A stretch of DNA of 48,694 nt from an uncultured Bacteroidales bacterium. GTDB lineage: Bacteria; Bacteroidota; Bacteroidia; Bacteroidales; Paludibacteraceae. The stretch is from assembly GCA_902765485.1 (NCBI GenBank), contig CACWZZ010000014.1, positions 1-48,694 on the forward strand, given 5' to 3'. This document shows positions 4,149 to 48,358 of the stretch, piece by piece. Below the pieces are notes generated by a model. That model saw only the letters and a program-made list of their open reading frames with translations. It did no database searches and had not been told where the DNA came from. A program made the translations under genes and the position numbers. The stretch's first letter is position 1. Every line of letters begins with the position of its first letter.

Positions 4149-6263
4149 ATGAAATTATTACTGATATTATCGGTTTTGCCGGCCATTCTGGCAGGCGAAT
4201 ACAATGCGAAAACGCTTTCTATCGCGGAGCAGGACAGCATTTTGAAGGTACAAGGTGACAAGGTACAAAGTGACAAGGTACAAAGTGACAAAGTACCAAG
4301 TACGCGGTATAGGCTGGAGCGCGAGAACGAGGAGCAGATTTTCCGCCATTCGCAGGTAGCGGAATGGTTTGTATATGACACAATGCGGCACACCCGTAAG
4401 CGCCTGGGAGAAGGGATGTTCAAGGGCGAAGAGGTCAAGGTGCGCGACGCGGTGATGAGTCCCAACGGACGGTATGTGGCTTTTGCGAAAGGCAATAACC
4501 TCTATGTCCACAAACTCGATTTTGGCACCGAAGTGGCGGTGACGAAGGACGAGAACACGGAGATCATCAACGGTGTGGCGGACTGGCTGTACGAGGAGGA
4601 GTTTGCCACCACGGCGTTGTTCGCTTGGAGTCCGGATTCGAAGCAACTGGCGTTTATACGGCTGGACGAGACGGACGTGCCGGAGTTCAGTTGGCAGACT
4701 TATCTGGAGACGCAGTATCCCGTCTTGGAGAGCCTGCGCTATCCGAAAGCCGGTTGTGCCAATGCGAAAGCGAGCGTTTGCGTCTATGACGTGGCGACGA
4801 AAGGGATTGTGAACATTCAGTTTTCAGAAGTCAACCATCAGAATTCAGATTATTATTTCCCGCGGTTGCGGTGGACGGAGAGCGGGGAACTGATTGTGCT
4901 GCGCGTGAACAGAGACCAGACAAAGATGGAGGTCTTTGCGTGCAATGCCAAATCGACTGTTTCGAACCTGCTGTACAAAGAGGAAAGCAAGAACTATTTC
5001 GTGGATTACAGCCTGTTCGACGAGTGGAAATGGCTGAGCGACGGAAGGATCATTGTGCTGAGCGAGAAAGACGGTTGGAGGCGTGCTTACCTCTATAACG
5101 CGCAAGGGATCGAGCAGCGAACGCTGACGCCGGAGGAGCGGGATGTGACCGCGCTGTATGCCGTGGACGAGAAAGCGCAGATGCTGTATTATCAAGCCGC
5201 TCCGACGCCGAGCACAAGGCAGATTTATGCAGTGGGCCTTCAGAAATCAGCTGTCAGCATTCAGCTGACGGAAGGCGAAGGCATGCACAGCGCGCGGTTC
5301 AGCGCAGACGGCAAGAAGATGATCGACTGCTACCAGAGTTTTGAGACTCCGAACCGATATACATTGTATAAAACCCTCTCCCCGGGAGTTCTACGACCGT
5401 CCACAGGACGCTCGATCGAGCAGAGCTCTTCACCCCTTAAGGGTGGGGAAGTGCTGCTGAGCAATGATTCGCTGGCTGAGGCATGGCAATCGAACGGTCT
5501 GCCTGAACCGGAACTGATGACGATCCCGAACGGCAAGGGTCAGGAGTTGGAAGCGATGCTGATGATAAGCGACAAAGTGACCAAGGACCAAGGACAAAGA
5601 CCTCTGGTGGTGATGCACTATTCGGGACCGGCGAGTCAGCGGGTGTTGAACCGTTGGCGCAAACGGTTCGAATATGCGTTAGTAGAAGAAGGTTACGCTG
5701 TGCTGATCGTGGACAGCCGCGGCGGTGACTGCCGTGGTCGTGCTTGGCGCAACGAGACGTATATGGGCTTGGGAATCAAGGAAGCGGAGGATCTGATTGC
5801 TGCAGCGAACTATATCGGTCAGCGTCCGGAGATAGACGCGGACAGAATGGCAATCCTCGGCTGGAGTTACGGCGGATATGAGACGCTGATGACGATGAGC
5901 ACCAAGGGACATCCGTTCAAAGCGGGTGTGGCGATCGCGCCGGTGACCGACTGGAAATTATACGACAGTGCTTATACAGAGCGCTATATGCGTCGTCCGC
6001 AGGTTAATCCGCGCGGATATGAAGAGGCTTCGCTGATGAACCATGTGGAGGACATGAGCGGCGAGGTGCTTATTATTCACGGAACGGGCGATGACAATGT
6101 GCATGTGCAGCACGCGATGCAGTATTTTGACGCGCTGGTGAAGGCTGACAAGCAATTCGAGATGCAGCTCTATCCGGACGACAATCATTTCCTGCGCAAA
6201 GGCAACAACGCCAAGCACATGCACGAGCGCGTGTTGCGCTTTTTGAAGCGAGTTTTAAAGTAA
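4149..6263 (+). CDS. Dipeptidyl peptidase IV (S9B prolyl oligopeptidase family), exported
   Basis: The product (704 aa) starts with a signal peptide (MKLLLILSVLPAILAGEYN). An N-terminal beta-propeller follows with the DPP IV glutamate motif DWLYEEEF (145-152), which anchors the substrate N-terminus. The C-terminal alpha/beta hydrolase carries GWSYGG (nucleophile Ser573), Asp648 in GTGDDN and His680 in DDNHF. It should cleave X-Pro dipeptides from peptides in the periplasm, a common peptide-feeding activity in Bacteroidales. Four stretches look inserted and match repeats elsewhere: 4247-4303 (VQGDK-type repeat), 4814-4848, 5241-5271 and 5372-5450. A short repeat is also present at 5571-5600. 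All keep the reading frame. The first insertion lies just after the signal peptide, where it is likely to be tolerated. Confidence 0.93.
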   Translation: MKLLLILSVLPAILAGEYNAKTLSIAEQDSILKVQGDKVQSDKVQSDKVPSTRYRLERENEEQIFRHSQVAEWFVYDTMRHTRKRLGEGMFKGEEVKVRDAVMSPNGRYVAFAKGNNLYVHKLDFGTEVAVTKDENTEIINGVADWLYEEEFATTALFAWSPDSKQLAFIRLDETDVPEFSWQTYLETQYPVLESLRYPKAGCANAKASVCVYDVATKGIVNIQFSEVNHQNSDYYFPRLRWTESGELIVLRVNRDQTKMEVFACNAKSTVSNLLYKEESKNYFVDYSLFDEWKWLSDGRIIVLSEKDGWRRAYLYNAQGIEQRTLTPEERDVTALYAVDEKAQMLYYQAAPTPSTRQIYAVGLQKSAVSIQLTEGEGMHSARFSADGKKMIDCYQSFETPNRYTLYKTLSPGVLRPSTGRSIEQSSSPLKGGEVLLSNDSLAEAWQSNGLPEPELMTIPNGKGQELEAMLMISDKVTKDQGQRPLVVMHYSGPASQRVLNRWRKRFEYALVEEGYAVLIVDSRGGDCRGRAWRNETYMGLGIKEAEDLIAAANYIGQRPEIDADRMAILGWSYGGYETLMTMSTKGHPFKAGVAIAPVTDWKLYDSAYTERYMRRPQVNPRGYEEASLMNHVEDMSGEVLIIHGTGDDNVHVQHAMQYFDALVKADKQFEMQLYPDDNHFLRKGNNAKHMHERVLRFLKRVLK
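4247..4303 (+). repeat. 15-bp tandem repeat (3.8 units) inside the DPP IV gene
   Basis: Units at 4247-4261, 4262-4276 and 4277-4291 read GGTACAARGTGACAA and are followed by a partial fourth unit. Fifteen bases equal five codons, giving repeated VQ(G/S)DK. The same 15-bp word, rotated, occurs three times on the other strand in rlmD (47404-47448). Confidence 0.85.
5372..5450 (+). repeat. GC-rich palindromic insertion in the DPP IV gene
   Basis: The stretch contains CCCTCTCCCCGGGAG near 5374 and CACCCCTTAAGGGTGGGG near 5431, separated by further self-complementary sequence (CTCGATCGAG). It encodes LSPGVLRPSTGRS and SSPLKGGE, low-complexity peptides unlike the enzyme. Related palindromes lie in the S8 protease, rlmD (twice), the pectate lyase signal peptide and at 48331-48358. 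Confidence 0.65.
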
Positions 6264-6270
6264 GCGGTCG

Positions 6271-6292
6271 CAGCGCGACGTCAGCGCGACGT
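6271..6292 (+). repeat. Two perfect 11-bp tandem units between DPP IV and the sugar transporter
   Basis: CAGCGCGACGT is repeated exactly at 6271-6281 and 6282-6292, followed by a partial CAGCC. Each unit contains the self-complementary core GACGTC at the junction. The rest of the 76-base gap (6264-6339) is A-rich and shows no clear promoter, so the transporter may be co-transcribed with the peptidase. Confidence 0.6.
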
Positions 6293-6339
6293 CAGCCGAT
6301 TGAAAGGATTTTACAACAAAATAAAAACAATTTAATATT

Positions 6340-7596
6340 ATGGAAACAAAACAACAAAACAAATCTCTGACAATTATCACGATTGTTGCGATGATGTTCC
6401 TCTACGCAATGATCTCTTTTGTCACCAATTTGGCAGCTCCGGTGGGTAAGATCTGGGGTGCATCGTTTGAAGACCCGGCTCAGGCTGAGCGAATGGGTAT
6501 GCTGGGTAACCTGTTCAATTTCCTGGCATACCTGATTATGGGTATTCCGGCAGGAAACATTTTGGCGAAACGCGGATACAAGAGCACCGCTTTGGCAGCT
6601 ATTTCTCTTGGCTTTATCGGCATCGGTTTTCAATGGATGAGTGGTGTGCTGGACAGTTTCGTTGTGTACCTCGTCGGAGCGCTTTTCGGCGGTTTCTGCG
6701 TGTGCATGCTGAACACGGTGGTGAACCCGATGTTGAACCTCTTGGGAGGCGGGGGCAACCGCGGAAACCAGCTGAACCTCATTGGTGGTACGATCAACTC
6801 GCTTTCCGGTGCGCTGACGCCGATGTTGGTCGGTTCGATAGTAGGCGAGAGCCTTGCCGGCAAAGAGATAGACGATGTGAATATAGTGCTTTATATAGCG
6901 ATGGCGGTGTTTGCCCTTGTTTATTTCGTCATCCGCGTCACACCGATTGCCGAGCCAGCAGGTGCAGGTCAGCAAGTGACTTACGAACGCAGCCCGTGGT
7001 CTTTCCGTCATCTGACGCTGGGTGTGATTGCGATCTTCTTCTATGTGGGTGTAGAGGTCGGTATTCCGGCAACGCTCATTTCGTATCTGACTCCGCGGGT
7101 TGGTTTTGCGGCAGCAGGTTTGATCGCAGGACGGTATTGGATTTTGATGCTGATCGGTCGTTTCATCGGTTCTGCCATCGGTGGTAAAGTGAGCAGCCGT
7201 GTGATGGTGATGTGTGTTGCGTCGGTAGCGATCGCGCTGATGGTGGCTGCTATGCTGATCGGCGACAGTATCATGGCGAAGACCTATGTTCAGGGTCAAG
7301 TGATCGCAGTACCGCTGGCTTCTACGCTGCTTGTCTTCTGCGGTCTGTGCACCTCTGTGATGTGGGGTTCGATCTTCAATATGGCTACTGAGGGATTAGG
7401 TAAATATACTGCGAAGGCGTCCGGAATCTTTATGATGATGGTCGTCGGTGGTGGTATCGTGCCGTATATCCAGAGTGTGATCGCGGCGCACGATTGCCTG
7501 CTCAGTTATATCGTGCCCATCTTCGGCGTGGCTTATATCCTCTTCTACGCAATCTGGGGAAGCAAAAATGTAAACAAAGATATTAAAATTGATTAA
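6340..7596 (+). CDS. MFS sugar transporter, FucP/glucose-galactose porter type
   Basis: The 418-residue protein has about twelve hydrophobic segments. It shows the motif VNPMLNLLGGGGNRGNQLN (near 128-146), typical of the Bacteroidota FHS group of the major facilitator superfamily (fucose, glucose/galactose and N-acetylglucosamine porters). It should import a monosaccharide, probably with H+ or Na+, across the inner membrane. The ROK kinase gene starts 2 bases after its stop, so imported sugar would be phosphorylated by that enzyme. The exact sugar (glucose, mannose or GlcNAc) cannot be read from the sequence. Confidence 0.85.
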   Translation: METKQQNKSLTIITIVAMMFLYAMISFVTNLAAPVGKIWGASFEDPAQAERMGMLGNLFNFLAYLIMGIPAGNILAKRGYKSTALAAISLGFIGIGFQWMSGVLDSFVVYLVGALFGGFCVCMLNTVVNPMLNLLGGGGNRGNQLNLIGGTINSLSGALTPMLVGSIVGESLAGKEIDDVNIVLYIAMAVFALVYFVIRVTPIAEPAGAGQQVTYERSPWSFRHLTLGVIAIFFYVGVEVGIPATLISYLTPRVGFAAAGLIAGRYWILMLIGRFIGSAIGGKVSSRVMVMCVASVAIALMVAAMLIGDSIMAKTYVQGQVIAVPLASTLLVFCGLCTSVMWGSIFNMATEGLGKYTAKASGIFMMMVVGGGIVPYIQSVIAAHDCLLSYIVPIFGVAYILFYAIWGSKNVNKDIKID

Positions 7597-7598
7597 CC

Positions 7599-8555
7599 AT
7601 GAAAAAGTATGCTTTAGGTATCGACTTGGGCGGAACGGGTACCAAGTTCGGTTTGGTAAATGATGAAGGTAAAGTGCTTCGTTGGAACTCGATTCCGACG
7701 CCTAATTATCCCAATATCGACGAGTACTGCGACGTGCTCTGCGAGGGAATGAAACGGCTGGTGGCGGACGAAGGTCTGTCGATGAGCGATATAGTGGGAG
7801 TGGGTTGCGGTGCGCCGAATGCCAATTTCTATTCGGGCTGTATCGAGCAGGCTCCGAACTTGCCGTGGAAGGGCGTTGTGCCGCTGGCTAAACTCATCAG
7901 CGAGCGGATGGGCGTCAAATGTACCATCACCAACGACGCCAATGCTGCGGCGCAGGGCGAGATGATCTACGGCTCGGCACGCGGAATGAAGAATTTCATC
8001 GTCATTACGCTCGGAACGGGTGTCGGATCGGGTATCGTCATCGACGGCAAGTTGCTCTACGGACATGACGGCTTCGCAGGCGAACTCGGTCACTGCAAGG
8101 TGGACCATTCCGGCAACGGACGTCTCTGCGGTTGCGGCCAGAAGGGCTGTATCGAGGCGTACGCTTCGGCTACCGGTGTGGCTCGCACGGCGAAAGAGAT
8201 TGTCACTTCGACCACCCAGCCGACGCTTCTCCGTCAAGTGGAGGACATCGATCATATCACGTCCAAGGATGTGTTTGACGCCGCAGAAAAGGGCGATCTG
8301 GTAGCCAAAGAGATCTTCGATTACACCGGACGTCTGCTGGGAGAGAAACTGGCGGATTTCGTTCATTTCTCTTCGCCGGAGGCAATTATCCTCTTCGGCG
8401 GTCTGACCAAGTCCGGACATTGGATCATGGACCCGATCCGCGAGGCGTTGGATGAAAACCTCATGCCGATTTGGAAGGGCAAAATACCTGTATCTATCTC
8501 GGTGCTTAAGGACAGCGATGCGGCTATCCTTGGCGCTTCTTCGCTCGCGTGGTAA
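7599..8555 (+). CDS. ROK family sugar kinase (glucokinase-like)
   Basis: The product (318 aa) has the ATP phosphate-binding motif LGIDLGGTGTKFGLV near the start, GTGVGSGIVIDG in the middle, and the ROK zinc motif with GH followed by CGCGQKGCIEAYAS. The sugar-binding stretch ELGH is present. ROK kinases phosphorylate glucose, mannose, N-acetylglucosamine or similar hexoses using ATP. It lies 2 bases after the transporter gene, and its end overlaps the next gene by 7 bases. The intact zinc motif and lack of an N-terminal helix-turn-helix indicate a kinase and not a NagC-type repressor. Confidence 0.9.
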   Translation: MKKYALGIDLGGTGTKFGLVNDEGKVLRWNSIPTPNYPNIDEYCDVLCEGMKRLVADEGLSMSDIVGVGCGAPNANFYSGCIEQAPNLPWKGVVPLAKLISERMGVKCTITNDANAAAQGEMIYGSARGMKNFIVITLGTGVGSGIVIDGKLLYGHDGFAGELGHCKVDHSGNGRLCGCGQKGCIEAYASATGVARTAKEIVTSTTQPTLLRQVEDIDHITSKDVFDAAEKGDLVAKEIFDYTGRLLGEKLADFVHFSSPEAIILFGGLTKSGHWIMDPIREALDENLMPIWKGKIPVSISVLKDSDAAILGASSLAW

Positions 8556-9139
8556 AAGTGCGCGATATATGGCAACGTCTCTTCCCGTACGGTGTTTTCC
8601 GTACGGGGGAGGCGGTTTATCTCACTTTTGACGATGGTCCTATTCCGGAGGTGACGCCGAAAGTGCTGGAGATTCTGGACCGCTACGGCGTGAAGGCGAC
8701 GTTCTTCATGGTGGGCGAGAACATAGACAAACATCCGGAGGTGTATGAGCAGGTCGTGAAAGCGGGTCATGCCATCGGCAACCATACCTATAACCACCTG
8801 AAAGGATGGAAATGCTCCTTGAAGGAGTATATGGCGAATGTGGAGAAGTTTCCCAAGGAGACCAAGCTCTTCAGACCTCCGTACGGCAAGGTTTGGATCT
8901 GGCAGCGGCGAGCCTTGACAAAGCAAGGCTATCGGATTATTTATTGGGATATTCTGACGCGGGATTATGACAAGCGCGTCACGCCCGAACAAATGTTCGC
9001 GCGGGTGAAACGCGACGTGCGTCCGGGGAGTATCATCAATTTTCACGATTCGCTCAAATCGAACGAACGGATGTTAGCGGTCTTACCGCAAGTAATAGAA
9101 TTTTTGCAGTCGCAGGGTTATGACCTGCGCACCTTATAG
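8549..9139 (+). CDS. Polysaccharide deacetylase family protein (NodB domain)
   Basis: The 196-residue protein is a single NodB carbohydrate esterase 4 domain. TFDDGP (about 26-31) supplies the catalytic base and a metal-binding aspartate. HTYNH supplies the metal-binding histidines, RPPYGK forms motif 3, and FHDS near the C-terminus supplies the late histidine. Such enzymes remove N-acetyl groups from GlcNAc polymers, including peptidoglycan. No signal peptide is visible. The start is probably GTG at 8549, overlapping the kinase gene by 7 bases; a second GTG at 8558 is possible. Its place after a sugar kinase suggests amino-sugar or cell-wall metabolism, which is inference. Confidence 0.85.
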   Translation: MVKVRDIWQRLFPYGVFRTGEAVYLTFDDGPIPEVTPKVLEILDRYGVKATFFMVGENIDKHPEVYEQVVKAGHAIGNHTYNHLKGWKCSLKEYMANVEKFPKETKLFRPPYGKVWIWQRRALTKQGYRIIYWDILTRDYDKRVTPEQMFARVKRDVRPGSIINFHDSLKSNERMLAVLPQVIEFLQSQGYDLRTL

Positions 9140-9140
9140 G

Positions 9141-12620: not shown

Positions 12621-12642
12621 ATCGTTATTAATATTTTGGCTA

Positions 12643-12674
12643 CAAAATTACTCTTTTTTATTGAATTTTGCAAA
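12643..12674 (-). promoter_or_regulatory. Promoter of the DUF4837 gene
   Basis: The minus strand carries -33 TTTG at 12674-12671 and -7 TAATTTTG at 12650-12643, spaced 20 bases. It is divergent from the AraC promoter 15 bases away. Confidence 0.8.
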
Positions 12675-12688
12675 AAAAATGTTAAAAA

Positions 12689-12720: not shown

Positions 12721-12782
12721 CCCCAAAAATAGCAAACAATAATCCTATGAGTTACATTATTTATTAACAAATACTTACGCAC

Positions 12783-17995: not shown

Positions 17996-17997
17996 AA

Positions 17998-34269: not shown

Positions 34270-34950
34270 ATGACCATATTATACGAAGACAATCATATCA
34301 TCGCCGTCAACAAGACCTGCAACGAGATCGTGCAGGGCGATAAAACCGGCGACACACCGCTTTCGGAGACCGTCAAGGCGTACATCAAAGAGAAGTACAA
34401 CAAACCCGGAGAAGTCTTCTTGGGCGTAACCCATCGTCTGGATCGTCCGACGAGCGGGGTAGTTCTCTTTGCCCGCACAAGTAAAGCTCTCGCGCGGCTG
34501 AACGAGATGTTCAAAAGTCATGAGCAGATCAAAAAGACTTATTGGGCTATCGTGCAGGGCGCTCCTAAAATGCCGGAAGCACGGCTGGAAAATTGGTTGA
34601 TTCGCAATGAGAAACAGAATAAAAGTTATATTGCTAAGCCCGGAGCCAAAGATGCCAAGTTGGCTGTCTTGACCTATAAAACGCTTGTCCGAGGCGATAA
34701 TTATACGCTCTTGGAGATCAATCTGGAGACAGGCAGACATCATCAGATCCGTTGCCAGTTAGCGGCTATCGGTTGCCCCGTAAAAGGCGATCTCAAATAC
34801 GGCGCAAAGCGCTCTAATCCCGATGGCGGCATCTGTCTGCACGCCCGGCAAATAGAGTTTGTTCATCCCGTTAGCAAAGAAGAAATATGTATCACCGCCC
34901 CAGTGCCCGACGACGCACTATGGCGCGCTTTGACAACCCAAATATCATGA
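34270..34950 (+). CDS. RluA-family RNA pseudouridine synthase
   Basis: The 226-residue protein is a catalytic domain only, without an S4 domain. The motif HRLDRPTSGVVLFARTSKA holds the catalytic aspartate, and ETGRHHQIRCQLA is the RNA-binding/active-site stretch of the family. It converts uridine to pseudouridine in rRNA or tRNA; the target cannot be read from sequence. The ATG at 34270 lies 6 bases after the rlmB stop, in a repeat. Its own stop overlaps the pectate lyase start (ATGA). Confidence 0.9.
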   Translation: MTILYEDNHIIAVNKTCNEIVQGDKTGDTPLSETVKAYIKEKYNKPGEVFLGVTHRLDRPTSGVVLFARTSKALARLNEMFKSHEQIKKTYWAIVQGAPKMPEARLENWLIRNEKQNKSYIAKPGAKDAKLAVLTYKTLVRGDNYTLLEINLETGRHHQIRCQLAAIGCPVKGDLKYGAKRSNPDGGICLHARQIEFVHPVSKEEICITAPVPDDALWRALTTQIS

Positions 34951-36641
34951 AAAAAATCGTATCTTTTCTTATTTTATGTCTGATGCCTTTCACTCTCTCT
35001 TGGGGAGAGGGACGGAGAGAGGTTTCCTTGCTGCCGGACACGATTGTTGCGTTCCCCGGAGCTGAAGGATTCGGTAAATACACTTCCGGTGGTCGCGGCG
35101 GTAAAGTAGTCTATGTCACCACCTTGGCGGATGACAAAGACGGAACGACCGAAGGCAGTCTCCGTTGGGCGATCAAGCAATACCCCGATGAACCGCTCAC
35201 CGTTTGTTTCGCGGTCTCCGGAGAGATCCGTTTGGTGGATCGCCTCTATTTCAACCGCCGTGAGAACTTCACCCTTGCCGGACAAACGGCTCCGGGAATG
35301 GGTATTGTCATAACCCACCACAAAGTGGAGTTCGGCGGATCGAAGAATTTTATCGTCCGCAATCTCCGTTTCCGTATCGGCAGGCTGGACGCTAACGGAG
35401 ATTTTATCAAAGCCAATGCGGTAGGAGCTGAGAACTGCGAAAACTATATCTTCGACCATTGTGATTTCGGCTGGTCCACAGAGGAAAACATGAATTCCAA
35501 CGACAGCCATTTTTTGACCATCCAATACTGCATCGTGCACGAAGGTCTCTATAACTCCGGTCACCCGAAAGGCTCTCGCGGATATGGTTGCCAATGGGGA
35601 GGATCTCCGGCTTCTTACCACCATAACTTGTTGATTAACAACAATGCACGTTCTTGCCGTTTTAATGGAGCGCAGAGCAATGACTGGGTAGTCTATATCG
35701 ACTATATCAATAATGTGCAATATAACTACGAAGGCGGTTCTACGGGCTGCTACGGCGGTGAGAATACTGCGAAACTGGCTGAGGGAGAATACAATGGGAT
35801 GAACTCCGTACACGAATGTAATTTCATCAATAATTACTACAAAGTAGGTCCCAATACCACCAAGTCGCAGAAAGATTTTGTCTCGGTGGAGGCAGCGCGT
35901 TCGGGTGCCACCTCATGGGGACCGAGTCACTGGTATCTGAACGGCAATGTGTTTGACGGAGTACCTGCTGCCACCGAGGATAACTGGTCTGCCGTGCATG
36001 GTAAATCGCCCTATACCAACACGGATACGCTGCGCGTGGACACACTCATCCGTCCTGCTACGCCTTGGTGGAGATGGACGGCGGATAGTATCTACGGTCG
36101 CTATGATTTCGATCTGTACGCCTATGCGGCAAGTGCTTATCAGACCGCAGAAGAAGCCTATGCTACGGTTTTGGATACCGTCGGCTGTTTCCCGCGTGAC
36201 CATGTGGAGAAGCGATTGGTGGCGGATTTGTCTGCCGGAACGCATACATACGAAGGTTCTAAAGGAAAGAAAAAAGGTATCATTGACGACCCGGAAGATG
36301 CCGAGGGATTTTACGCATACCCGGATTCGCTCAATTATGACCTTGCTTCCTATGACACTGATCTGGACGGAATGCCGGACGAGTGGGAGAGTGCGAACGG
36401 TTGCGATCCGCAGGTAGCGGATAATAATGTCCGTCACGCGAGCGGTTATACCATGCTGGAAATGTATCTCAATGATGCAATGTACAAGACTCCGATGGAT
36501 GACGGCTATCGGGAGCCGGAGCATGAAGGAATCCGGGATACGGAATACAATATGCAAAATACAAAAATACTCCGCGACGGACAGTTGTTTATCCAACGCG
36601 GAGAGAAAATCTATACACTCCAAGGACAGGAGTTAAAATAG
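34947..36641 (+). CDS. Exported pectate lyase-like protein (PL1 type) with C-terminal tail motif
   Basis: The start at 34947 overlaps the previous stop by four bases and gives a signal peptide; the upstream in-frame ATG is inside the RluA gene. The 564-residue enzyme begins VAFPGAEGFGKYTSGGRGGK and has EGSLRWAIKQ, NFTLAGQTAPGMGIVI, FDHCDFGWSTEEN and the DTDLDGMPDEWE stretch seen in Bacteroidetes PL1 proteins. It is expected to cleave pectin-type galacturonan or a related polymer. The signal-peptide region (LSWGEGRRE, DNA 34991-35022) contains a palindromic repeat. The last 24 residues (ILRDGQLFIQRGEKIYTLQG plus QELK) match the tail of the S8 protease at 44524 and follow a repeat (36535-36570). 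Confidence 0.85.
   Translation: MKKIVSFLILCLMPFTLSWGEGRREVSLLPDTIVAFPGAEGFGKYTSGGRGGKVVYVTTLADDKDGTTEGSLRWAIKQYPDEPLTVCFAVSGEIRLVDRLYFNRRENFTLAGQTAPGMGIVITHHKVEFGGSKNFIVRNLRFRIGRLDANGDFIKANAVGAENCENYIFDHCDFGWSTEENMNSNDSHFLTIQYCIVHEGLYNSGHPKGSRGYGCQWGGSPASYHHNLLINNNARSCRFNGAQSNDWVVYIDYINNVQYNYEGGSTGCYGGENTAKLAEGEYNGMNSVHECNFINNYYKVGPNTTKSQKDFVSVEAARSGATSWGPSHWYLNGNVFDGVPAATEDNWSAVHGKSPYTNTDTLRVDTLIRPATPWWRWTADSIYGRYDFDLYAYAASAYQTAEEAYATVLDTVGCFPRDHVEKRLVADLSAGTHTYEGSKGKKKGIIDDPEDAEGFYAYPDSLNYDLASYDTDLDGMPDEWESANGCDPQVADNNVRHASGYTMLEMYLNDAMYKTPMDDGYREPEHEGIRDTEYNMQNTKILRDGQLFIQRGEKIYTLQGQELK
34991..35022 (+). repeat. Palindromic repeat in the pectate lyase signal peptide
   Basis: CTCTCTTGGGGAGAG and GACGGAGAGAGG encode SWGEGRRE right at the end of the signal peptide. 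It belongs to the GC-rich palindrome family seen at 5372-5450, 44607-44638, 46750-46778, 47022-47063 and 48331-48358. Confidence 0.55.
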
Positions 36642-36831: not shown

Positions 36832-37439
36832 AGGGGTAAATAAATTACCTGTTTGGTCTCGAACCATTCGCCTTTAAACCATTGACTGCAGGGGGTAACC
36901 TCTGCAGTTTTTTGATAAGGAGCCAGTTCGGCTTTCAGGTCTCCGCCTTTGAGCACGATAATACCATTTGGTACCGCATTGCGCTGCTTGGTGGAGATAT
37001 TTTTACGCACCAGTTTTACCAAATCGGGTAGGGGCATGACTGCGCGGGAAACGACGAAATCGAATTTCTGCTTCTCTTCTTCCGCGCGCTCTTGTTTGCA
37101 AACGACGTTGTCTAGTCCCAAAGCCTGCGCTACCTCGCTTGCCACCTTGATCTTCTTGCCAATCGAATCAATCAGCATGAACTGACATTCCGGAAAGAGA
37201 ATAGCCAGCGGAATACCCGGAAAACCGCCTCCTGTGCCTACGTCCAGAATCGTTGTACCGGGCTGAAACGGCAGCCATTTAGCGATCGCCAGCGAGTGCA
37301 GCACATGGTGCTCGTACAGATTATCTATGTCTTTTCGCGAGATCACATTGATCTTGCTGTTCCAGTCGCGATAAAGCGCGTCAAGCTGAGCAAACTGCTC
37401 AGCCTGACGTTCGGTTAGTTGGAAATAATCAGAAATCAT
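36828..37439 (-). CDS. rsmG: 16S rRNA (guanine-527-N7)-methyltransferase RsmG
   Basis: The start is placed at 37439 (MISDYF), since the eight upstream in-frame residues are encoded by a TTTCAACTCTAAACACTC-type repeat. The 203-residue enzyme has the SAM-binding motif [16 protein letters not shown] and the family stretches [19 protein letters not shown] and [11 protein letters not shown]. It methylates N7 of G527 in 16S rRNA (E. coli numbering); its loss gives low-level streptomycin resistance in other bacteria. It lies 30 bases downstream of yebC and probably shares its transcript. Confidence 0.94.
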
Positions 37440-38251: not shown

Positions 38252-38259
38252 CATAATGC

Positions 38260-40905: not shown

Positions 40906-40920
40906 TCTTGTGCCCTCCTA

Positions 40921-42807: not shown

Positions 42808-42847
42808 AAATTTTATTGAGTTTGTTTGTTGTTTACAATTTTGCGTG

Positions 42848-42879
42848 CAAAATTACAAAAAAAAATTCATATATGCAAG
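42848..42879 (-). promoter_or_regulatory. Promoter of the lipoprotein-OmpA operon
   Basis: On the minus strand -7 TAATTTTG lies at 42855-42848 and -33 CTTG at 42879-42876, spaced 20 bases. The leader to the ATG at 42807 is about 35 bases. Confidence 0.75.
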
Positions 42880-42894
42880 TAAATTGGTATTTAT

Positions 42895-44301
42895 TTATCG
42901 CAATATGAATATTTTTTCTGTAGCGCGTGTTATGGCGGTGTATAGCCATCGCAGGAATTCTCTTCTCTCCATAGGATCCGCCATCCGCTCCTGATCTTCG
43001 CCAATGCCGCTGGTGTCGATATAAACGTGTTTCCATTGCCCGCCTTGTGATTTATGGCAAGTAACGCAATAGGCGAAGCGCACTTGCAGCGCGTTGTAGT
43101 ACGGCGATTCATAGATTTTTTTGACCAACTCTTTCTTGTTTCGGATCTCCGGATAGTCCTCTGCAATCCGGCTGAATAGTTCGCGCTGCAGTTGGTAATT
43201 GGCTTCGGGACTGTCGGTCATAAGGGTGTCAATCCATATCAGCGCATCGATCTCCCAATCATAATCTACTGACCGCAGGCTGGCGTTGGCAAACTGAAAT
43301 CCGTACATTTCATGCCGGTTAGTGAGACGCTCTATCTCAAACATATCGCCGTTGGCGAGAAACTCCAGATCTTTGTATTCCTGCGCCCAGAAATAGTTGT
43401 TTTTGGTGACCATGAGTCGGTCGCCGCCGGACAGATCATCCTCTTTCCATAGCACGCGTGCGCGCACTCCTTGATTATAAAGGTTGGTCATTTTGTTGCT
43501 GCGGGCAATGATCAAAGTCTCCTCTGCGCCCACTGCGCGCCAACTGTCCTCCAGCTGCTCAATCACTTCCTCTCCCGGCACTTTAATGACGTCCCGTCCG
43601 TTGGAATGAATGCTGACGGCTGAATGCTGAAAGCTCTCTTCTGACAGCTCTTCCCTTATCCTCGTGGCTTCTTTCAGAATACCGCTGTCCAGCGCTTGTC
43701 GCGCCACGGCTGACAACTGATAACTGAAAACGGATAGCCCGTATCCCCTCATAAAATCCGTGTCCAGCGCAGGGCTGAGACTGCTGCCCACAGGCGGTAA
43801 CTGGGCATCGTCGCCCAAGAGGAGTAGAGAGCAACCTTTGCCGTTATAGACATATCGCACCAGGTCGTCCAAGAGACATCCGCTGCCGAACGTGCTGTTG
43901 TCCCGTTCGCCGGACAACATAGATGCCTCATCCACGATAAATAGTGTTCTGGCGTGCAAATTGTCGGTCAGAGAGAATGCCTCCACGCCCAGTTGGTTCT
44001 GGCGGTAGATCTGTTTATGGATGGTGTATGCCGGAAAACCCGAATAGCGGCTCAGCACTTTGGCTGCACGCCCGGTAGGAGCGAGTAGAACGCAGGGTTG
44101 CTTAAGTCCCATCAACGCGCGCACCAAGGCACTCATGACGCTTGTTTTGCCTGTGCCGGCATAGCCGCGGAGGATAAAAACCTTGTGCTCATCGCGGGAC
44201 ACAATAAACGCCCCGAGAGCCTTGAAAAGTCCCTCTTTCTCCTCATTGGGTTCAAACGGTAATTCCGTTTTTATACGTCCTATGATGAAGTCCTCCAGCA
44301 T
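42895..44301 (-). CDS. RecD-like ATP-dependent DNA helicase (superfamily 1B)
   Basis: The 468-residue protein has Walker A GYAGTGKTS (45-53), APTGRAAKVL (motif Ia), Walker B IVDEASML, motif III LLLGDDAQLPPVGSS and a UvrD-like C-terminal domain ending with CVTCHKSQGGQW and LYTAITRATEK. These are SF1 motifs of the RecD/Dda type; such single-subunit proteins unwind DNA 5' to 3'. It is shorter than RecD2, lacking the long N-terminal extension. Two stretches resemble the window's repeats: FSYQLSAVA (DNA 43706-43733) and SFQHSAVSIHSNGRD (DNA 43606-43650). Confidence 0.85.
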   Translation of the reverse strand: MLEDFIIGRIKTELPFEPNEEKEGLFKALGAFIVSRDEHKVFILRGYAGTGKTSVMSALVRALMGLKQPCVLLAPTGRAAKVLSRYSGFPAYTIHKQIYRQNQLGVEAFSLTDNLHARTLFIVDEASMLSGERDNSTFGSGCLLDDLVRYVYNGKGCSLLLLGDDAQLPPVGSSLSPALDTDFMRGYGLSVFSYQLSAVARQALDSGILKEATRIREELSEESFQHSAVSIHSNGRDVIKVPGEEVIEQLEDSWRAVGAEETLIIARSNKMTNLYNQGVRARVLWKEDDLSGGDRLMVTKNNYFWAQEYKDLEFLANGDMFEIERLTNRHEMYGFQFANASLRSVDYDWEIDALIWIDTLMTDSPEANYQLQRELFSRIAEDYPEIRNKKELVKKIYESPYYNALQVRFAYCVTCHKSQGGQWKHVYIDTSGIGEDQERMADPMERREFLRWLYTAITRATEKIFILR

Positions 44302-44349
44302 TGTTGTGAAAGGTTTTTATGGGCAAAAAGATATTTTTTCTCAAATAAA

Positions 44350-44381
44350 TTTGCGTATTCCAAAAAAAAGCAGTACCTTTG
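44350..44381 (+). promoter_or_regulatory. Promoter of the SRP RNA gene
   Basis: -33 TTTG lies at 44350-44353 and -7 TACCTTTG at 44374-44381, spaced 20 bases, close to consensus as expected for a stable RNA. Confidence 0.85.
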
Positions 44382-44387
44382 CACCCG

Positions 44388-44503
44388 CTTTTGAGAGTTA
44401 TAGGCAGGTGCTATACGACCAGCTCCCTCTGAACTCCCCCAGGCCTTGACCGGAGCAAGGGTAGGAGGTTGTAGCGGTGCGATGTAGTTAGCCTGCCTTT
44501 TTT
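44388..44503 (+). ncRNA. ffs: Signal recognition particle RNA (4.5S, small bacterial type)
   Basis: The ends pair, GTTATAG at 44397 with CTATAAC at 44508, and GGCAGG (44403-44408) with CCTGCC (44492-44497), followed by a run of Ts acting as terminator. The conserved Ffh-binding tip is recognisable as CAGGCCTTGACCGGAGCAAG with GGTAGGAG after it, and the distal GATGTAGTTAGCC matches the 3' half of known 4.5S RNAs. It forms a single long hairpin of about 110 bases. It acts with Ffh and FtsY in co-translational targeting of membrane proteins. The strand is opposite to both neighbours. Confidence 0.93.
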
Positions 44504-44523
44504 GTGTCTATAACCCTAGGACC

Positions 44524-45960
44524 CTAGTGCCCTAGTTCTTTTCCCAATAGATCATACCTCTTTCCGCCGCGGAGGATGTAGATCTGTCCGTCTTGCAATA
44601 ACTTTACTCCCTCTCTTGGTGAGAGGGCAGGGGTGAGGTTTTCTGAATCTTCTGATCCCATCGTATAGGCTTTCCATGCATCGGGAATACCATATCCCAT
44701 CTGGTTATTCGGGTCATAACCGGGGTATAAATGCGCCGATCGGATAATCAGATTGCGTATCTGCATCGCGCTTTTGTCCGGCAGCGCGGACCAGATGCTG
44801 GCAGCCATACCGGCTAACAGAGGCGTAGCAAAACTGGTTCCGTTGCTTTGCACAATCGCGCTGTTGTATGGATGGATCAGAACTGACTGCTTGCCCACTG
44901 CGCACACTTCCGGTTTGATGCGTCCGTCCGAAGTAGGACCGTAACTGGAGAAATCGGCTGCTACGCTGTCGGTACCTACCGCTCCGACCGTCAGAATGCT
45001 GTCTGCGTCACAGGGAGCGCTGATGGTGCGCCATGCCACATCGCCTTCATTGCCGGCTGCCACGCATACCAGCATGCCTTTTCGTGCAGCAATCGTGGCG
45101 GCGCGGCTCACACGAGTCTTTTTGCCGTCTAAATCCTTCTGCTTGTCCAGATTCCATACCGGATTGTCGAATTGTGCATACCCCAGCGAAACCGAGAACA
45201 CATTGACGCCTAACGAATCGGCTTTCTCCAGTGCAGCCACCAGATTGTCCATCTCTTTGGGGCTCTCGGTGTTGTATTCCTCGGAGCGCATCAGATAGTA
45301 ATTGGCTTTTGTCGCTGCGCCGTAATAGCCGTTTTGTATGCCGCTGATGGTGGTCAGGCACTCTGTCCCGTGTACGCCGGTGATTCCGCTGTCGTAAAAA
45401 TCGTAGTGGTCGTCCGTGAAGTCGAAATGCCCCAACTTCTGTTCCTGCCGGAAGCAGCTCATTGTGTCTGCATGGAGGAATCCGCCGTCGCATACCGCCA
45501 TCAGAATCCCTTGTCCTTTATATCCTAAATCGTGCAGCGGCGTGAGGTTATAGAGCGCTAATTGTTGGTCCGTGTAGCGGACATTGACTTCTGACAGCTG
45601 ATTTCTGACGGCTGACAACTGACGACTGACAGCTCTTTTGCGCAAACTATAGGAGGATCCGCCTTCCTCCCGTGTCATTTCGACGGCGGTGACGAAGCCT
45701 AAGTTCTTCACTTTGGCGGCTGTTGCGTCGTCCATCTCTACGGTTGCGCCGTTGAACCAGCGGCTCGTATGATGCACCTTTACACCCATTTTCCGCAAAC
45801 TGTCCAGATACAGCGGACTAACCGGATAATCCATCTCGTCCGTCGGAATATGCCATTTGGCGCGTTGCTCTACGGCGCGTGGCGATAAAGCCGGAGCACT
45901 CTTCTCCGGCTTGTCCAAAAAGGAAACAAAAAAGATGTGTAAAATAATCAGCAATGACAT
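44524..45960 (-). CDS. S8 (subtilisin) family serine protease with C-terminal tail motif
   Basis: The 478-residue enzyme has a hydrophobic N-terminus, an I9-like pro-region (AVEQRAKWHIPTDEMDYPVS) and the S8 triad: Asp in MAVCDGGF, His in GVHGTE and Ser in NGTSFATPLLAG. It should be an exported endopeptidase. Insertions keep the frame: SRQLSAVRNQLSEV (DNA 45588-45636) between pro-region and catalytic domain, and LTPALSPREG (DNA 44607-44638) before the tail. The last 25 residues (LLQDGQIYILRGGKRYDLLG plus KELGH) match the tail of the pectate lyase at 34947. It follows rlmD by 36 bases; the gap is a TTTAACGA-type repeat. Confidence 0.88.
   Translation of the reverse strand: MSLLIILHIFFVSFLDKPEKSAPALSPRAVEQRAKWHIPTDEMDYPVSPLYLDSLRKMGVKVHHTSRWFNGATVEMDDATAAKVKNLGFVTAVEMTREEGGSSYSLRKRAVSRQLSAVRNQLSEVNVRYTDQQLALYNLTPLHDLGYKGQGILMAVCDGGFLHADTMSCFRQEQKLGHFDFTDDHYDFYDSGITGVHGTECLTTISGIQNGYYGAATKANYYLMRSEEYNTESPKEMDNLVAALEKADSLGVNVFSVSLGYAQFDNPVWNLDKQKDLDGKKTRVSRAATIAARKGMLVCVAAGNEGDVAWRTISAPCDADSILTVGAVGTDSVAADFSSYGPTSDGRIKPEVCAVGKQSVLIHPYNSAIVQSNGTSFATPLLAGMAASIWSALPDKSAMQIRNLIIRSAHLYPGYDPNNQMGYGIPDAWKAYTMGSEDSENLTPALSPREGVKLLQDGQIYILRGGKRYDLLGKELGH
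44607..44638 (-). repeat. GC-rich palindromic insertion before the S8 protease tail
   Basis: CCTCTCTTGGTGAGAGG with CAGGGGTGAGG encodes LTPALSPREG. The peptide and palindrome recur in other genes of the window in different frames, so the DNA and not the protein is what is conserved. Confidence 0.65.
45588..45636 (-). repeat. CTGACAGCTGA-type word repeat in the S8 protease gene
   Basis: The words CTGACAGCTGAT, CTGACGGCTGACAA, CTGACGA and CTGACAGCT follow one another. The same words occur in dsbD, rlmD, the helicase gene, the DPP IV gene and the rlmB-rluA gap, producing recurrent SA(V/I)S peptides. Confidence 0.65.
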
Positions 45961-45996
45961 AACAATTTACGATTTACAATTTAACAATTTAACGGT

Positions 45997-47529
45997 TTAA
46001 CGATTTAACGAGCGCAGCTCCAACTGCACCACGTTTTCCACATGTTGGGTATGGGGGAACATATCCACGGGTTGTACTTTGGTCACTTTGTATTTGGCGT
46101 CGAGGAGTGCCAGATCGCGTGCTTGTGTCGCGGGATTGCAACTCACATAAACGATCCGTTTGGGTTCGGCATTCAGGATCACGTTCACCACATCTTCATG
46201 CATTCCGGCTCTGGGCGGATCGGTAATAATGATGTCCGGACGCCCGTGTTGCGCGATGAAATCGTCGTTCAAAATATCCTTCATGTCACCTGCGAAGAAG
46301 AGGGTGTTCTCAATTCCGTTAATCTTCGAATTGACTTTTGCGTCTTCGATCGCTTCCGGCACGTACTCAATACCGATCACTTGACGCGCCTGACGGGCAA
46401 CGAAATTAGCAATCGTGCCGGTGCCCGTGTAGAGGTCGTAAACCAAAGGCTGATGGCTGATAGCTGACTGCTGATCGCTGATAGCTTCGAACGCAAACTC
46501 ACGCGCGACTTTGTAGAGTTCGTACGCTTGTTCGGTGTTGGTCTGGTAGAACGATTTGGGACCCACTTTGAATTGCAGCCCTTCCATCTCCTCCATGATA
46601 TGATCCTGACCGAAATATACTTTCACCTCTTGGTCGCCGATGGTGTCGTTGAATTTGAGGTTCTCCACATAGAGTAGGGAAATGATCTCCGGGAACTCGG
46701 TGTGCAGGAACTCCAATAGGCTGAAAGCTGACTGATAGTTGCTTCCTTTCTCCTCCCTTGAGGGGAGGTCGGGTGGGGTTATTCTCTCTCCGAACACGAC
46801 AATCAGCATCAGTTCGCCTTTGTGGTTATTGCGCAGAATGAGCGTCCGCAGCAGTCCTTCGTGCGTGTGTTCGTTATAGAAAGTCAGACCGTGCTCTTTG
46901 GCGTACGTGCGTACGGCATTGCGGATGCGGTTGTTGATCTCCGGCATAAGGTGACATTCCTCGATGTCCAGCACTTTGTCAAACGCACCGGGTATATGGA
47001 ATCCGATTCCGGGTTCGTACACCCTCTCTTCTCCCTCCCTGCGGGGGAGGGGCGGGGTGGGGCTCCATCTTCTGTCCGAGCAACTGAACTCCAGTTTGTT
47101 GCGGTATTCATAGACATGCTTGGAGCCCAGAATAGGACTGATCTCCGGCAGTTCGATCTTGCCGATCCGCGTGAGGTTATCGACTATCTGCTGCTGTTTG
47201 TATCTCAGTTGCTCCTCGTACGGCAGTATCTGCCATTTGCAGCCGCCGCAGACGCTGAAATGCTTGCATCGCGCTTCGCACCGGATGGGGGAGGGTTGTA
47301 CGATGCGCAGCACGCGGGCTTCCATGAACGAGTGTTTCTTTTTGGTCACCTGCAGATCCACGATGTCACCCGGTACGCAGTTCGGCACAAAAACGACCAT
47401 CCCTTTGTCACTTGGTACTTTGTCACTTGGTATTTGGTCACTTTGTATCTTAGCAATGGCTTTTCCTTCTGCGGCTACGCCGGTGATCTCGATATGTTCC
47501 AAGATCGGTAGATTTTTCTTCTTTCCCAT
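45997..47529 (-). CDS. rlmD: 23S rRNA (uracil-C5)-methyltransferase, RlmD/RlmCD type
   Basis: The protein (510 aa) starts with a TRAM domain, then a 4Fe-4S motif (CKHFSVCGGCKW, C-x5-C-x2-C), the SAM site DLYTGTGTIANFVA, DPPRAGMHEDVV and the nucleophile in YVSCNPATQARDL. It should methylate U1939 (and possibly another uridine) of 23S rRNA. It carries at least four in-frame repeat insertions: IQSDQIPSDKVPSDK (47404-47448), WSPTPPLPRREGEE (47022-47063), ITPPDLPSREEKG (46750-46778) and ISDQQSAISHQP (46448-46486), plus NYQSAFS (46718-46741). The final codons and stop (LNR and TAA) also come from a repeat. Catalytic motifs are intact. Confidence 0.92.
   Translation of the reverse strand: MGKKKNLPILEHIEITGVAAEGKAIAKIQSDQIPSDKVPSDKGMVVFVPNCVPGDIVDLQVTKKKHSFMEARVLRIVQPSPIRCEARCKHFSVCGGCKWQILPYEEQLRYKQQQIVDNLTRIGKIELPEISPILGSKHVYEYRNKLEFSCSDRRWSPTPPLPRREGEERVYEPGIGFHIPGAFDKVLDIEECHLMPEINNRIRNAVRTYAKEHGLTFYNEHTHEGLLRTLILRNNHKGELMLIVVFGERITPPDLPSREEKGSNYQSAFSLLEFLHTEFPEIISLLYVENLKFNDTIGDQEVKVYFGQDHIMEEMEGLQFKVGPKSFYQTNTEQAYELYKVAREFAFEAISDQQSAISHQPLVYDLYTGTGTIANFVARQARQVIGIEYVPEAIEDAKVNSKINGIENTLFFAGDMKDILNDDFIAQHGRPDIIITDPPRAGMHEDVVNVILNAEPKRIVYVSCNPATQARDLALLDAKYKVTKVQPVDMFPHTQHVENVVQLELRSLNR
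46448..46486 (-). repeat. GCTGATAGCTGA-type word repeat in rlmD
   Basis: GGCTGATGGCTGATAGCTGA continues as CTGCTGATCGCTGATAGC, units of 7-8 bases. It is inserted just before the SAM-binding motif of RlmD and encodes AISDQQSAISHQP. Confidence 0.65.
46750..46778 (-). repeat. GC-rich palindromic insertion in rlmD (copy 1)
   Basis: CTCCTCCCTTGAGGGGAGG is a near-perfect palindrome followed by TCGGGTGGGG. It encodes PPDLPSREE in RlmD. Confidence 0.65.
47022..47063 (-). repeat. GC-rich palindromic insertion in rlmD (copy 2)
   Basis: CCCTCTCTTCTCCCTCCCTG is followed by CGGGGGAGGGGCGGGGTGGG. It is closely related to copy 1 but read in another frame, encoding PTPPLPRREGEE. Confidence 0.65.
47404..47448 (-). 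repeat. Three 15-bp tandem units inside rlmD
   Basis: Plus-strand units TTTGTCACTTGGTAC, TTTGTCACTTGGTAT and TTGGTCACTTTGTAT lie at 47404, 47419 and 47434. On the coding strand they are (G/A)TACCAAGTGACAAA, the same word as the DPP IV repeat at 4247-4303. They encode IQSDQ, IPSDK, VPSDK in the TRAM region. Confidence 0.85.
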
Positions 47530-47647
47530 GATGTATTTTTTAGTGTTAGAGCTGGCGCTTCAGCGCTATCCGCGTTAGCGGCTGACGCCGAAAGGCGGAT
47601 TAAACTATTGACAAAATGACTGAAAAATGCATTTTTTCCTTCAAAAA

Positions 47648-47679
47648 TTTGCATGTTTCAAAAAAATGTAGTACTTTTG
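47648..47679 (+). promoter_or_regulatory. Promoter of the 47.7-kb RNA
   Basis: -33 TTTG lies at 47648-47651 and -7 TACTTTTG at 47672-47679, spaced 20 bases. It points away from rlmD into a region with no plus-strand gene. Confidence 0.82.
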
Positions 47680-47685
47680 CAGTCG

Positions 47686-47866
47686 CAAAAGCATATTGAG
47701 CGCGTGTGGCTCACCACCTGCGTCTGGTTGCATTCCGTTTTTACTCGTTGCAATTCAGCGGCACAGAGGTAAGGCTGAACGGAAGTCTTATGTTAAGAGC
47801 GGGGTTTAACACACACCAACTCAATTTTACGCAGCCTGCCCCAATTCATCGGGCGGGCTGATTTTA
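47686..47866 (+). ncRNA. Candidate small RNA with 6S-like outline
   Basis: The transcript from the promoter at 47648 would be about 180 bases. A closing stem pairs ATTGAG (47695-47700) with CTCAAT (47820-47825) and GTGTG (47704-47708) with CACAC (47812-47816). It encloses a wide bubble of about 24 bases on each side, the right side holding a small hairpin TCTTA/TAAGA (47786-47798). An apical stem pairs TTCCG (47733-47737) with CGGAA (47780-47784) and TTCAGC (47754-47759) with GCTGAA (47774-47779). Closing stem, bubble and apical stem is the outline of 6S RNA. A terminator-like hairpin (47832-47841 with 47851-47860) and ATTTTATT follow. A competing 5' hairpin (47701-47722) is also possible. 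The 3' part is antisense to the gene ending at 47793. Confidence 0.5.
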
Positions 47867-48251
47867 TTACATAGACCCGCTTTCTTCCCATCCATTCTAT
47901 TTTCAGTTCCACAACTGCACATTGTTCCAAGTCGCTATCGGTCTTTCGGGCACCACTCACAATAAAGAAATAAGCGTCTCTATTGTCTTTGCGCACTTCG
48001 TCAGACTGATTGATGATCATCGTCACGTAGTTAAAAGCCTCCATGCCCAGCGAAGCTAACTCTTGGTTATGTTTGTTCGCCACATGTACAATCTCACGCT
48101 CCGAGATTAGAATGTCTGCTGCCGGAAGTTTCTCGTTCATCCAACTATGCAGCCGGACACGACCAATCTTAATAAATCGGTTTTCATTATGTGCTTTCGT
48201 ACCGCTGCCGGCATTTGAACGCTTTGGCAATTGTTTACTACTTGTTTTCAT
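47793..48251 (-). CDS. Small protein, possibly PBECR3-like nuclease-fold family
   Basis: The start is placed at 48251 because it follows the promoter; the ATG at 48329 lies upstream of it. The 152-residue protein has a basic N-terminal tail (KTSSKQLPKR) and a domain containing ADILISEREIVHVANKHNQE, LASLGMEAFNYVTMIIN and AYFFIVSG. The pattern I-x-H-x3-KH-x2-EL-x2-LG resembles small Bacteroidota proteins assigned to the PBECR3 nuclease-like group, but this is recognition by eye. It is a single-gene unit. Its last 30 codons overlap the plus-strand RNA candidate, and the palindrome at 47832-47860 encodes ARPMNWGRLR. Confidence 0.6.
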   Translation of the reverse strand: MKTSSKQLPKRSNAGSGTKAHNENRFIKIGRVRLHSWMNEKLPAADILISEREIVHVANKHNQELASLGMEAFNYVTMIINQSDEVRKDNRDAYFFIVSGARKTDSDLEQCAVVELKIEWMGRKRVYVIKSARPMNWGRLRKIELVCVKPRS

Positions 48252-48267
48252 ATTGCAAAATCCCGTG

Positions 48268-48299
48268 CAAAGGTACAACTTTTTTTTGAGATATGCAAG
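48268..48299 (-). promoter_or_regulatory. Promoter of the small gene at 47793-48251
   Basis: On the minus strand -7 TACCTTTG lies at 48275-48268 and -33 CTTGC at 48299-48295, spaced 20 bases. The leader is about 10 bases. Confidence 0.75.
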
Positions 48300-48325
48300 A
48301 AAAATCGTCCTTTCGGGCGATTTTT
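48300..48325 (-). terminator. Intrinsic terminator after the truncated hypothetical gene
   Basis: AAAAATCGTCC (48300-48310) pairs with GGGCGATTTTT (48315-48325) around a TTTC loop, with A and T tracts on both sides. It sits 33 bases beyond the stop at 48358 and would work in either direction. Confidence 0.8.
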
Positions 48326-48330
48326 CCAAT

Positions 48331-48358
48331 CCTCTCCCCCTTTAGGGGGGTGGGGGGC
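48331..48358. repeat. GC-rich palindromic repeat, intergenic copy
   Basis: CCTCTCCCCCTTTAGGGGGG followed by TGGGGGGC is the only intergenic copy seen of the palindrome family that is inserted in five places in genes of this window. It touches the stop codon of the hypothetical gene at 48358. Confidence 0.65.

Follow-up and report, generated by a model that had tools for sequence, protein, structure and literature searches.

The stretch of DNA analysed here, which we refer to as the window, comprises 48,694 nucleotides (positions 1 to 48,694 of contig CACWZZ010000014.1, GenBank assembly GCA_902765485.1) from an uncultured Bacteroidales bacterium of the Paludibacteraceae, whose genome (G000; 2.117 Mb, 82.8% complete) carries a dispersed family of GC-rich palindromes that are triplex motifs (TMs). 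A preliminary description of this DNA had placed such palindromes at six sites, most of them within genes. All six are present, with four strong matches to a covariance model of the family (46.0-53.2 bits, G-rich strand on the plus strand), whose scores are partly due to construction because all four are seeds of the model, one degenerate copy and one composite. The features at these sites are:

5372..5450, minus strand: interrupted TM in the DPP IV gene (4098-6263, plus strand), recognised from the sequence of relatives and matched by the model only as a 6-bit fragment

5384..5430, no strand assigned: nested insert with the core TTCTACGACCGTCCACAGGACGCTC..., starting near 5389, recognised by its recurrence in other copies, boundaries approximate

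34986..35028, plus strand: TM of the CTCTC/GAGAG subfamily, 47.8 bits, in the N-terminal, signal-peptide-like part of the open reading frame (ORF) 34887-36641

44602..44644, plus strand: TM of the GAGAG..TGAGG subfamily, 53.2 bits, within the C-terminal region of the gene for the S8 peptidase (44524-45960, minus strand)

46744..46784, plus strand: TM of the CTCCTCCC subfamily, 46.0 bits, in rlmD (45997-47529, minus strand), encoding TPPDLPSREE

47026..47068, plus strand: TM of the CCCTCCC..TGGGG subfamily, 49.6 bits, in rlmD, encoding SPTPPLPRREG

48326..48363, plus strand: degenerate intergenic TM-like copy with a CCCCC/GGGGG stem and a GGGGGG tail, a weak match (15.6 bits, E 0.0031)

The interrupted copy in the DPP IV gene, which is common to the related genome G174, is located between the DPPIV_N and Peptidase_S9 domains in an orientation opposite to the other window copies, with an insert of ~45 bases separating its third strand (5374-5383) from its hairpin (about 5431-5448). 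The core of this insert recurs in stretches of G000 (window 5390, L290 14308 and L300 2223) and at two places in G174, and a TM copy at L303:7849 that does not contain the insert faces a G174 counterpart that does (42 bases, in frame). With the conserved core TTCTACGACCGTCCACNGGACGCTC, the insert is listed at window 5384-5430, L290 14308, L300 2223, L323 12150 and L334 13254. The copy at 34986, which has a close counterpart at the corresponding place of G174, was scored as outside genes by our simple gene caller, though ORF 34887-36641 spans it; for the ascription to a pectate lyase, no Pfam match was found at 1e-3. In the S8 peptidase gene, the copy encodes NLTPALSPREG on the C-terminal side of the Peptidase_S8 domain and its counterpart in G174 has decayed. 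This peptide, as well as the two encoded in rlmD, agrees with those read earlier. For the degenerate copy at 48326..48363, no paired flank match was found in sister stretches.

The palindromes form a single dispersed family with about 90 copies in G000. A strict pattern derived from the window palindromes yielded 23 raw matches at 21 distinct places of the genome, whereas the reversed pattern, used as control, gave no match to either strand. A covariance model (R1), built on 23 G000 copies including the four firm ones of the window, gave 109 matches at E <=0.1 in the whole genome, some of which represent the opposite strand of one palindrome, and 89 copies at E <=0.0003 in a scan of the window and of stretches fetched from G000, so that the mobile family proposed in the preliminary description is not contradicted by any lack of further copies. 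In six pairs of copies from separate loci, 29-37 consecutive bases are exactly the same, and a 37-base exact run is common to the copy at 46744 and the one at L284:3023-3063. The consensus, which reads about CTCCCTCCC TTGA GGGGAGGG TCG GGGTGGGG TTT, displays a pyrimidine arm, a purine arm that follows after a short loop and, beyond a second loop of 3 nucleotides, a purine-rich third strand that can occupy the major groove of the hairpin in antiparallel direction, and on these sequence features the palindromes can firmly be assigned to the class II intrastrand triplex motif (TM, earlier PIT), as defined in the available text of Holder et al., 2015 (PMC4666352). The class II ITxF definition, which demands consecutive pyrimidine, purine and third-strand blocks with stems of 6-15 and loops of 1-6 and tolerates one mismatch in stems of >=7, describes the types GAGAGGG/GGGTGAG (7/7), GGGAGG/GGTGGG (6/6) and GGGAGGG/GGGTGGG (7/7), which were assigned by eye to the copies at 44602, 46744 and 47026, whereas the copy at 34986 fits less well, its type matching at 5/8. 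The strict TMECO form (CCCTCNCCCN3-6GGGNGAGGGN3GGGNGAGGG, 9-nucleotide stems) was not found among the four firm window copies, which by eye are shorter-armed.

The motif extends far beyond this genome. Two G000 copies (L011 and L014) contain an exact 23-base pattern, related to the consensus, that was also found in at least 119 stretches of named genomes, with Pseudomonas, Enterobacter, Variovorax, Methylobacterium, Archangium, Verrucomicrobia, Chloroflexi, Pirellulales, Acidobacteria and Bacteroidota among the 80 stretches listed. In viral contigs of IMG/VR (L335-L434), the motif was found in at least 120 stretches and its TGGGG form in 20, matches that may include the host flanks of proviruses; phages could conceivably be a vehicle for the spread of TMs.

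The variation among copies was analysed in a parse of the 89 copies that assumes Watson-Crick pairing, requires a mostly-purine arm and fixes the second loop at 3, with the third strand compared to the purine arm in antiparallel direction by a mirror rule that places G opposite G and A or T opposite A. In this register, 545 of 630 positions match, compared to a mean of 451 and a maximum of 482 for shuffled third strands (0/5000 reach the observed value), among copies that are related rather than independent and in part misparsed. The same pattern is found in the 65 copies without a model-seed match by string comparison (382/455; shuffle mean 315, maximum 344; 0/5000) and in the 49 distinct types of arm and third strand (272/349; 0/5000). 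Conversely, the direct-repeat register gives 442 matches against a shuffle mean of 440 (2163/5000 reach it), and since it is no better than shuffles, we rejected an origin of the tail as direct repeat. The A positions move together in arm and third strand by subfamily, with GGGGAG accompanied by GAGGGG and GAGAGGG by GGGTGAG. A mirror match is not a product of ordinary templated copying and hence favours the view that folding is constrained. A triplex constraint is well supported for the G000 copies.

Gene calls, which were obtained with a simple and crude codon-model caller, locate 43 of the 89 copies wholly within predicted genes, 8 across a gene end and 38 outside. With a coding fraction of 0.82 in these stretches, genes are therefore avoided, yet often hit. 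In 33 copies, at least 20 amino acids with a positive coding score are found on either side, with all six frame and strand classes in use, which bears out the claim that the palindromes reside in frame inside genes while frame and strand differ; by eye, the consensus has a stop in only one of six frames. There is no bias of the copies with respect to gene strand, 41 being oriented with and 48 against the majority gene strand. All of 20 host genes, picked by hand from the 36 outside the window with at least 20 amino acids on both sides, matched Pfam at 1e-5. From their domain content we take the host genes to include murD-, murG-, lpxD-, glmS-, alr-, mnmA-, dus-, miaB/rimO- and hflX-like genes. 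The element is found inside the C domain of the murD-like and the mnmA-like gene, between the domains of the murG-like and the miaB/rimO-like gene, inside LpxD in the lpxD-like gene, between GATase and SIS in the glmS-like gene and inside the racemase domain of the alr-like gene; a dus-like gene is a host too and the hflX-like gene contains three copies. The reading frame of rlmD is open in G000 and the peptides inserted there overlap in part with gaps in an alignment to S. pneumoniae SP_1029 (5xj1).

Along the contigs, the copies are co-oriented, with 76 of 89 in the majority orientation of their contig (5000 shuffles gave 62.8 on average and 72 at most). In 65 of 89 copies, and in 35 of 47 untied stretches with three ties, the G-rich strand coincides with the strand in C excess, a placement that is found for 61/89 copies and 32/47 stretches if the skew is taken at third positions. 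A similar order was found in 18 other genomes, where among 130 of the matches listed 33 of 43 neighbouring copies share the same orientation and 10 differ. As a general rule, the G-excess strand is the leading strand. If this holds here, the foldable strand would be kept off the lagging template. Scores differ little between favoured and other orientation (mean 42.4 vs 39.7 bits), and less degeneration in the favoured orientation was rejected on this ground. In E. coli, the 23 TM positions contained in the available text of Holder et al., 2015 (PMC4666352) are distributed 13 vs 10, with no bias, relative to origin and terminus as we take these to be located.

Across 61 genomes of the genus, of which 44 contain model copies, the count per genome varies between 0 and at least 102, with low counts that may partly reflect divergence from G000, on which the model was trained. 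The element at 46744 in rlmD is absent from all 29 other orthologues aligned, which comprise those of G174, G150 and 27 further genomes, and the orthologues thus do not all carry the same segments, a finding that would have spoken against a mobile family. At this site, G174 contains an 18-base tract with a 7-bp period instead, with a length difference of 36 bases, and G150 likewise has no element. The site at 47026 is occupied by a different TM copy in G174 and by a AATTAAAAATGAAAAATG-type tract in G150. Throughout the 30 rlmD orthologues including G000, the variable sites hold a TM copy, tracts of 7-bp period, AATTAAAAATGAAAAATG-type tracts or other sequence. Two such tracts are located in rlmD of the window:

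46449..46486, no strand assigned: tract with a 7-bp period (GCTGATA) in rlmD, with other sequence opposite to it in G174

47403..47447, no strand assigned: tract with a 15-bp (7+8) period inside rlmD, longer in G174

These in-frame low-complexity tracts of 7-bp (also 8 and 15) period, which come with many units, are found at 46449-46486, 47403-47447 and 4245-4303 of the window and in the rlmD orthologues L104-L133. In rlmD, tracts and palindromes occur at the same variable sites and the tracts vary between sister species.

In comparisons of G000 and G174, a site contains an identical copy, a different copy (47026 in rlmD; L294:16013) or unrelated sequence opposite, and where TM sites face unrelated G174 sequence, their flanks are mostly 87-100% identical. 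G174 in turn holds elements opposite unrelated G000 sequence at some sites. Identical in-gene copies in G174 are found at L294:3112, L294:3065 and L303:2651, the last of which is also present in G150, with 3 differences in 43 positions of the element (by eye) and flanks of 81-84%. An anchor-based comparison of stretches from G000 and G174, restricted to patches >=20 bases and excluding gaps >1500 bases and overlapping anchors, listed 26 patches of low identity. In the 13 within genes, the change in length is a multiple of three in 13/13 cases (one of them zero), compared to 5/13 outside, and by eye a TM element is involved in 6 of the in-gene patches and a tract of short period in about 5. At window position 36866-36875, G174 has an extra in-frame patch of 78 bases that carries another palindrome, CCTCCCGATGAAACGGGAGG. 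The turnover between G000 and G174 thus takes the form of swapped patches: no clean insertion of the kind that a transposon-type MITE would leave, with precise ends and a target-site duplication, was seen in the site comparisons with G174, in which no formal search for target-site duplications was made, and the comparison of filled and empty sites put forward in the preliminary description does not reveal clean transposition.

In light of these observations, we consider it moderately probable that the palindromes are a TM family under triplex constraint, which spreads without an enzyme by replication-linked copying of patches. The strand carrying a TM would fold or stall during replication, and a short ectopic single-stranded patch might then be copied into the gap, either by template switching or by short-patch illegitimate recombination. 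Short-patch double illegitimate recombination would be one mechanism of this kind; no paper under this name was found in the open-access literature searched. Receiving sites would be permissive, either loop-coding or intergenic, and within genes only changes of 3n bases would survive. The strand bias would reflect either a preference during insertion or, with greater likelihood, a preferential loss of those copies that have their foldable G-rich strand on the lagging template while it is single-stranded.

Several observations weigh against this proposal. No donor-to-recipient event was traced, and its mechanism of spread is for this reason one that we infer. The covariation is weaker in a replicate of 23 partly orthologous copies from G174 and G150, where 135/162 mirror matches are reached by 10/5000 shuffles and the value for distinct types by 669/5000. 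With respect to the folding energy of single-stranded DNA, only the copy at 44602-44644 clearly exceeds shuffles (z -2.45), with z-scores of +0.28 to -1.51 for the other five; a special hairpin stability of single copies was consequently rejected, and the signal of the family is its repeated sequence and the pattern of its variation, not hairpin energy. In the available text of Holder et al., 2015 (PMC4666352), the triplex of E. coli TMs is stable in vitro by circular dichroism and nuclear magnetic resonance (NMR), with a G-quadruplex excluded by NMR, whereas in vivo footprinting did not support a stable triplex. Several TM sites are simply shared between G000 and G174, and the genomes compared are incomplete (71% for G174, 63% for G138 and 82.8% for G000). 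An enzyme other than one of the Y1_Tnp family (PF01797) could act on the copies, and Y1_Tnp itself occurs in the genus, where 22 of 61 genomes have some match, 18 of them above the cut-off, ranging from a strong one in G144 (2.9e-25) to others between 1.7e-11 and about 1e-3, and including one weak match each in the copy-rich genomes G135, G151 and G170 (73, 57 and 41 copies).

Such matches are pertinent to the alternative that the palindromes are elements of the REP or REPIN type, moved by a REP-associated tyrosine transposase (RAYT) of the Y1 family that was lost or missed. The strand co-orientation would fit single-strand transposition and, across the family, a hand count finds PF01797 in 30/40 genomes with a model match vs 39/80 without, a comparison in which relatedness and genome size are confounding factors. 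Conversely, Y1_Tnp was found neither in G000, where it was the only transposase family sought, nor in G150 (97% complete, at least 102 copies), G157 (97%, 87), G163 (90%, 81), G174 and G138, which contain between 62 and at least 102 copies, with four of these sister genomes at 81 matches or more; the earlier idea of such a transposase thus found no counterpart there. In 20 stretches around Y1 genes or copies, some of which were chosen for nearness, a copy lies within ~0.6 kb of a Y1 gene in just two. In G100, a Y1 gene (L085, G100:C81) is located about 0.3 kb from an inverted TM pair, one of seven such pairs among the matches listed (starts 71-98 bases apart). We rejected a RAYT link by way of this gene, as it is flanked by its own palindrome, which differs from the TM, and the most copy-rich genomes of the genus have no Y1 match. 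The palindrome in question, CCGCAGGCGAGCG..GCCTGCGG, borders the gene at about 14960-15800 of L085, with a third palindrome, GTAGGGGCGTT..AACGCCCCTAC, nearby. In G100, which belongs to another genus, inverted TM pairs resembling REPIN dimers are frequent (contigs C19, C50, C81, C120, C226, C342 and C356), unlike in G000, where TM copies are mostly single. A terminal GTAG or CGTC tag was found by eye neither in the consensus nor in the 89 aligned copies; CCTC in the TM stem might be read as a CGTC tag, but the stem does not start with the A/T pair of CGTC stems. Transposition by a RAYT is thus an unlikely source of the family, and the kinship to REP/RAYT systems considered earlier was not supported, since the sequence is that of a cross-phylum triplex motif, no Y1 was found in G000 and the copy-rich genomes named above, and the sites do not resemble those of clean transposition.

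It is also improbable that the palindromes are vertically inherited structural or regulatory elements that do not move and whose differences between species reflect loss and decay. This view would account for the near-identical sites of G000 and G174 and for L303:2651, which is better kept than its flanks in G150, and it is in line with the available text of Holder et al., 2015 (PMC4666352), where changes around TMs are mostly small and due to deletion or mutation. It is at odds with the element at 46744 that is missing in 29 other orthologues, with G174 elements that face unrelated G000 sequence, with the exact runs in six pairs of copies at different loci and with counts from 0 to at least 102 within one genus. 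An origin of the in-gene copies as artefact of annotation or assembly, by overpredicted ORFs, pseudogenes or chimeric assemblies, is very unlikely, as the crude gene caller, the draft state of the assemblies and stops inside some rlmD matches of other genomes stand against the Pfam domains of host genes, the open rlmD in G000, in-gene length changes that are multiples of three in all 13 listed patches and the identical in-gene copies of G174.

TMs are described as abundant and unstable, and our analysis bears on the relevance of the triplex and on the route of their spread. If our interpretation is correct, the mirror covariation would be the first evolutionary evidence within the open-access literature that a triplex, and not just a hairpin, is maintained. 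The covariation argues for three-stranded pairing, and the strand bias and the swapped patches suggest that replication drives the process. From the copies that reside in frame within murD-, murG-, lpxD-, glmS- and alr-like genes, it would seem that this DNA can rewrite parts of core enzymes with the frame surviving. In its most far-reaching form, which we regard as speculative, the family would constitute a self-spreading DNA structure without its own enzyme, patch-copied during replication with its foldable strand off the lagging template, and in this genus would continually supply essential enzymes with new loop peptides.

As to other features of the window, a Bacteroidales small signal recognition particle (SRP) RNA (RF04183, 103 bits) at 44395-44502 adjoins the S8 peptidase gene, and a search of the window at the gathering threshold of Rfam found nothing beyond it.

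Several known systems share features with the family. In the available text of Holder et al., 2015 (PMC4666352), the strict TM form occurs 3610 times in 262 proteobacterial genomes, including 23 copies in E. coli MG1655 that are always intergenic with no strand bias reported; local instability is raised around TMs, no transposase remnants were found, and the main text contains no Bacteroid* term. Like TM and TMECO, the G000 elements combine a pyrimidine arm, a loop, a purine arm, a 3-nucleotide loop and a purine third strand around the core CCCTCTCC..GGAGAGGG..GGGGTGAGG, differ strongly in copy number among close relatives, have no transposase near and are surrounded by patches that are changed or lost. 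Unlike TMECO, their stems are 6-8 instead of 9 and several subfamilies have shifted A positions. The same hairpin as in the G000 TM is found in the CCCTCTCCCXX(X)GGGAGAGGG palindromes of Enterobacter sp. 638, which are described with one hundred copies, often at 3' ends of genes, as probable terminators, a description that in its available part does not mention the third strand (PMC2869309).

In-frame palindromes within genes are as such already known from GTAG and CGTC REPs and from Rickettsia palindromic elements (RPEs), as far as described in the available texts (PMC3733652; PMC10969869). Some GTAG and CGTC REPs reside within ORFs, among which are genes for repair and tRNA-related functions. 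For CGTC repeats, an occurrence in Bacteroidetes is reported as well, and the CGTC REPs are taken to include RPE-4 and RPE-6 (Di Nocera et al., 2013, PMC3733652). In contrast to these REPs, which have terminal tags and, for CGTC, stems starting with AT, the G000 element has a G/C-rich stem and a third strand. The comparison to RPEs drawn in the preliminary description stands for the in-frame lifestyle in unrelated genes, but not for kinship, as RPEs are about 150 bp long with a conserved in-frame peptide (PMC10969869), while the G000 unit of about 40 bp has no conserved peptide and uses six frame classes. Among the titles and abstracts listed in searches of the open-access literature, none describes TMs in Bacteroidota or in frame. 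What sets this family apart from the TMs of E. coli is that TM variants often reside in frame within genes and are co-oriented along contigs.

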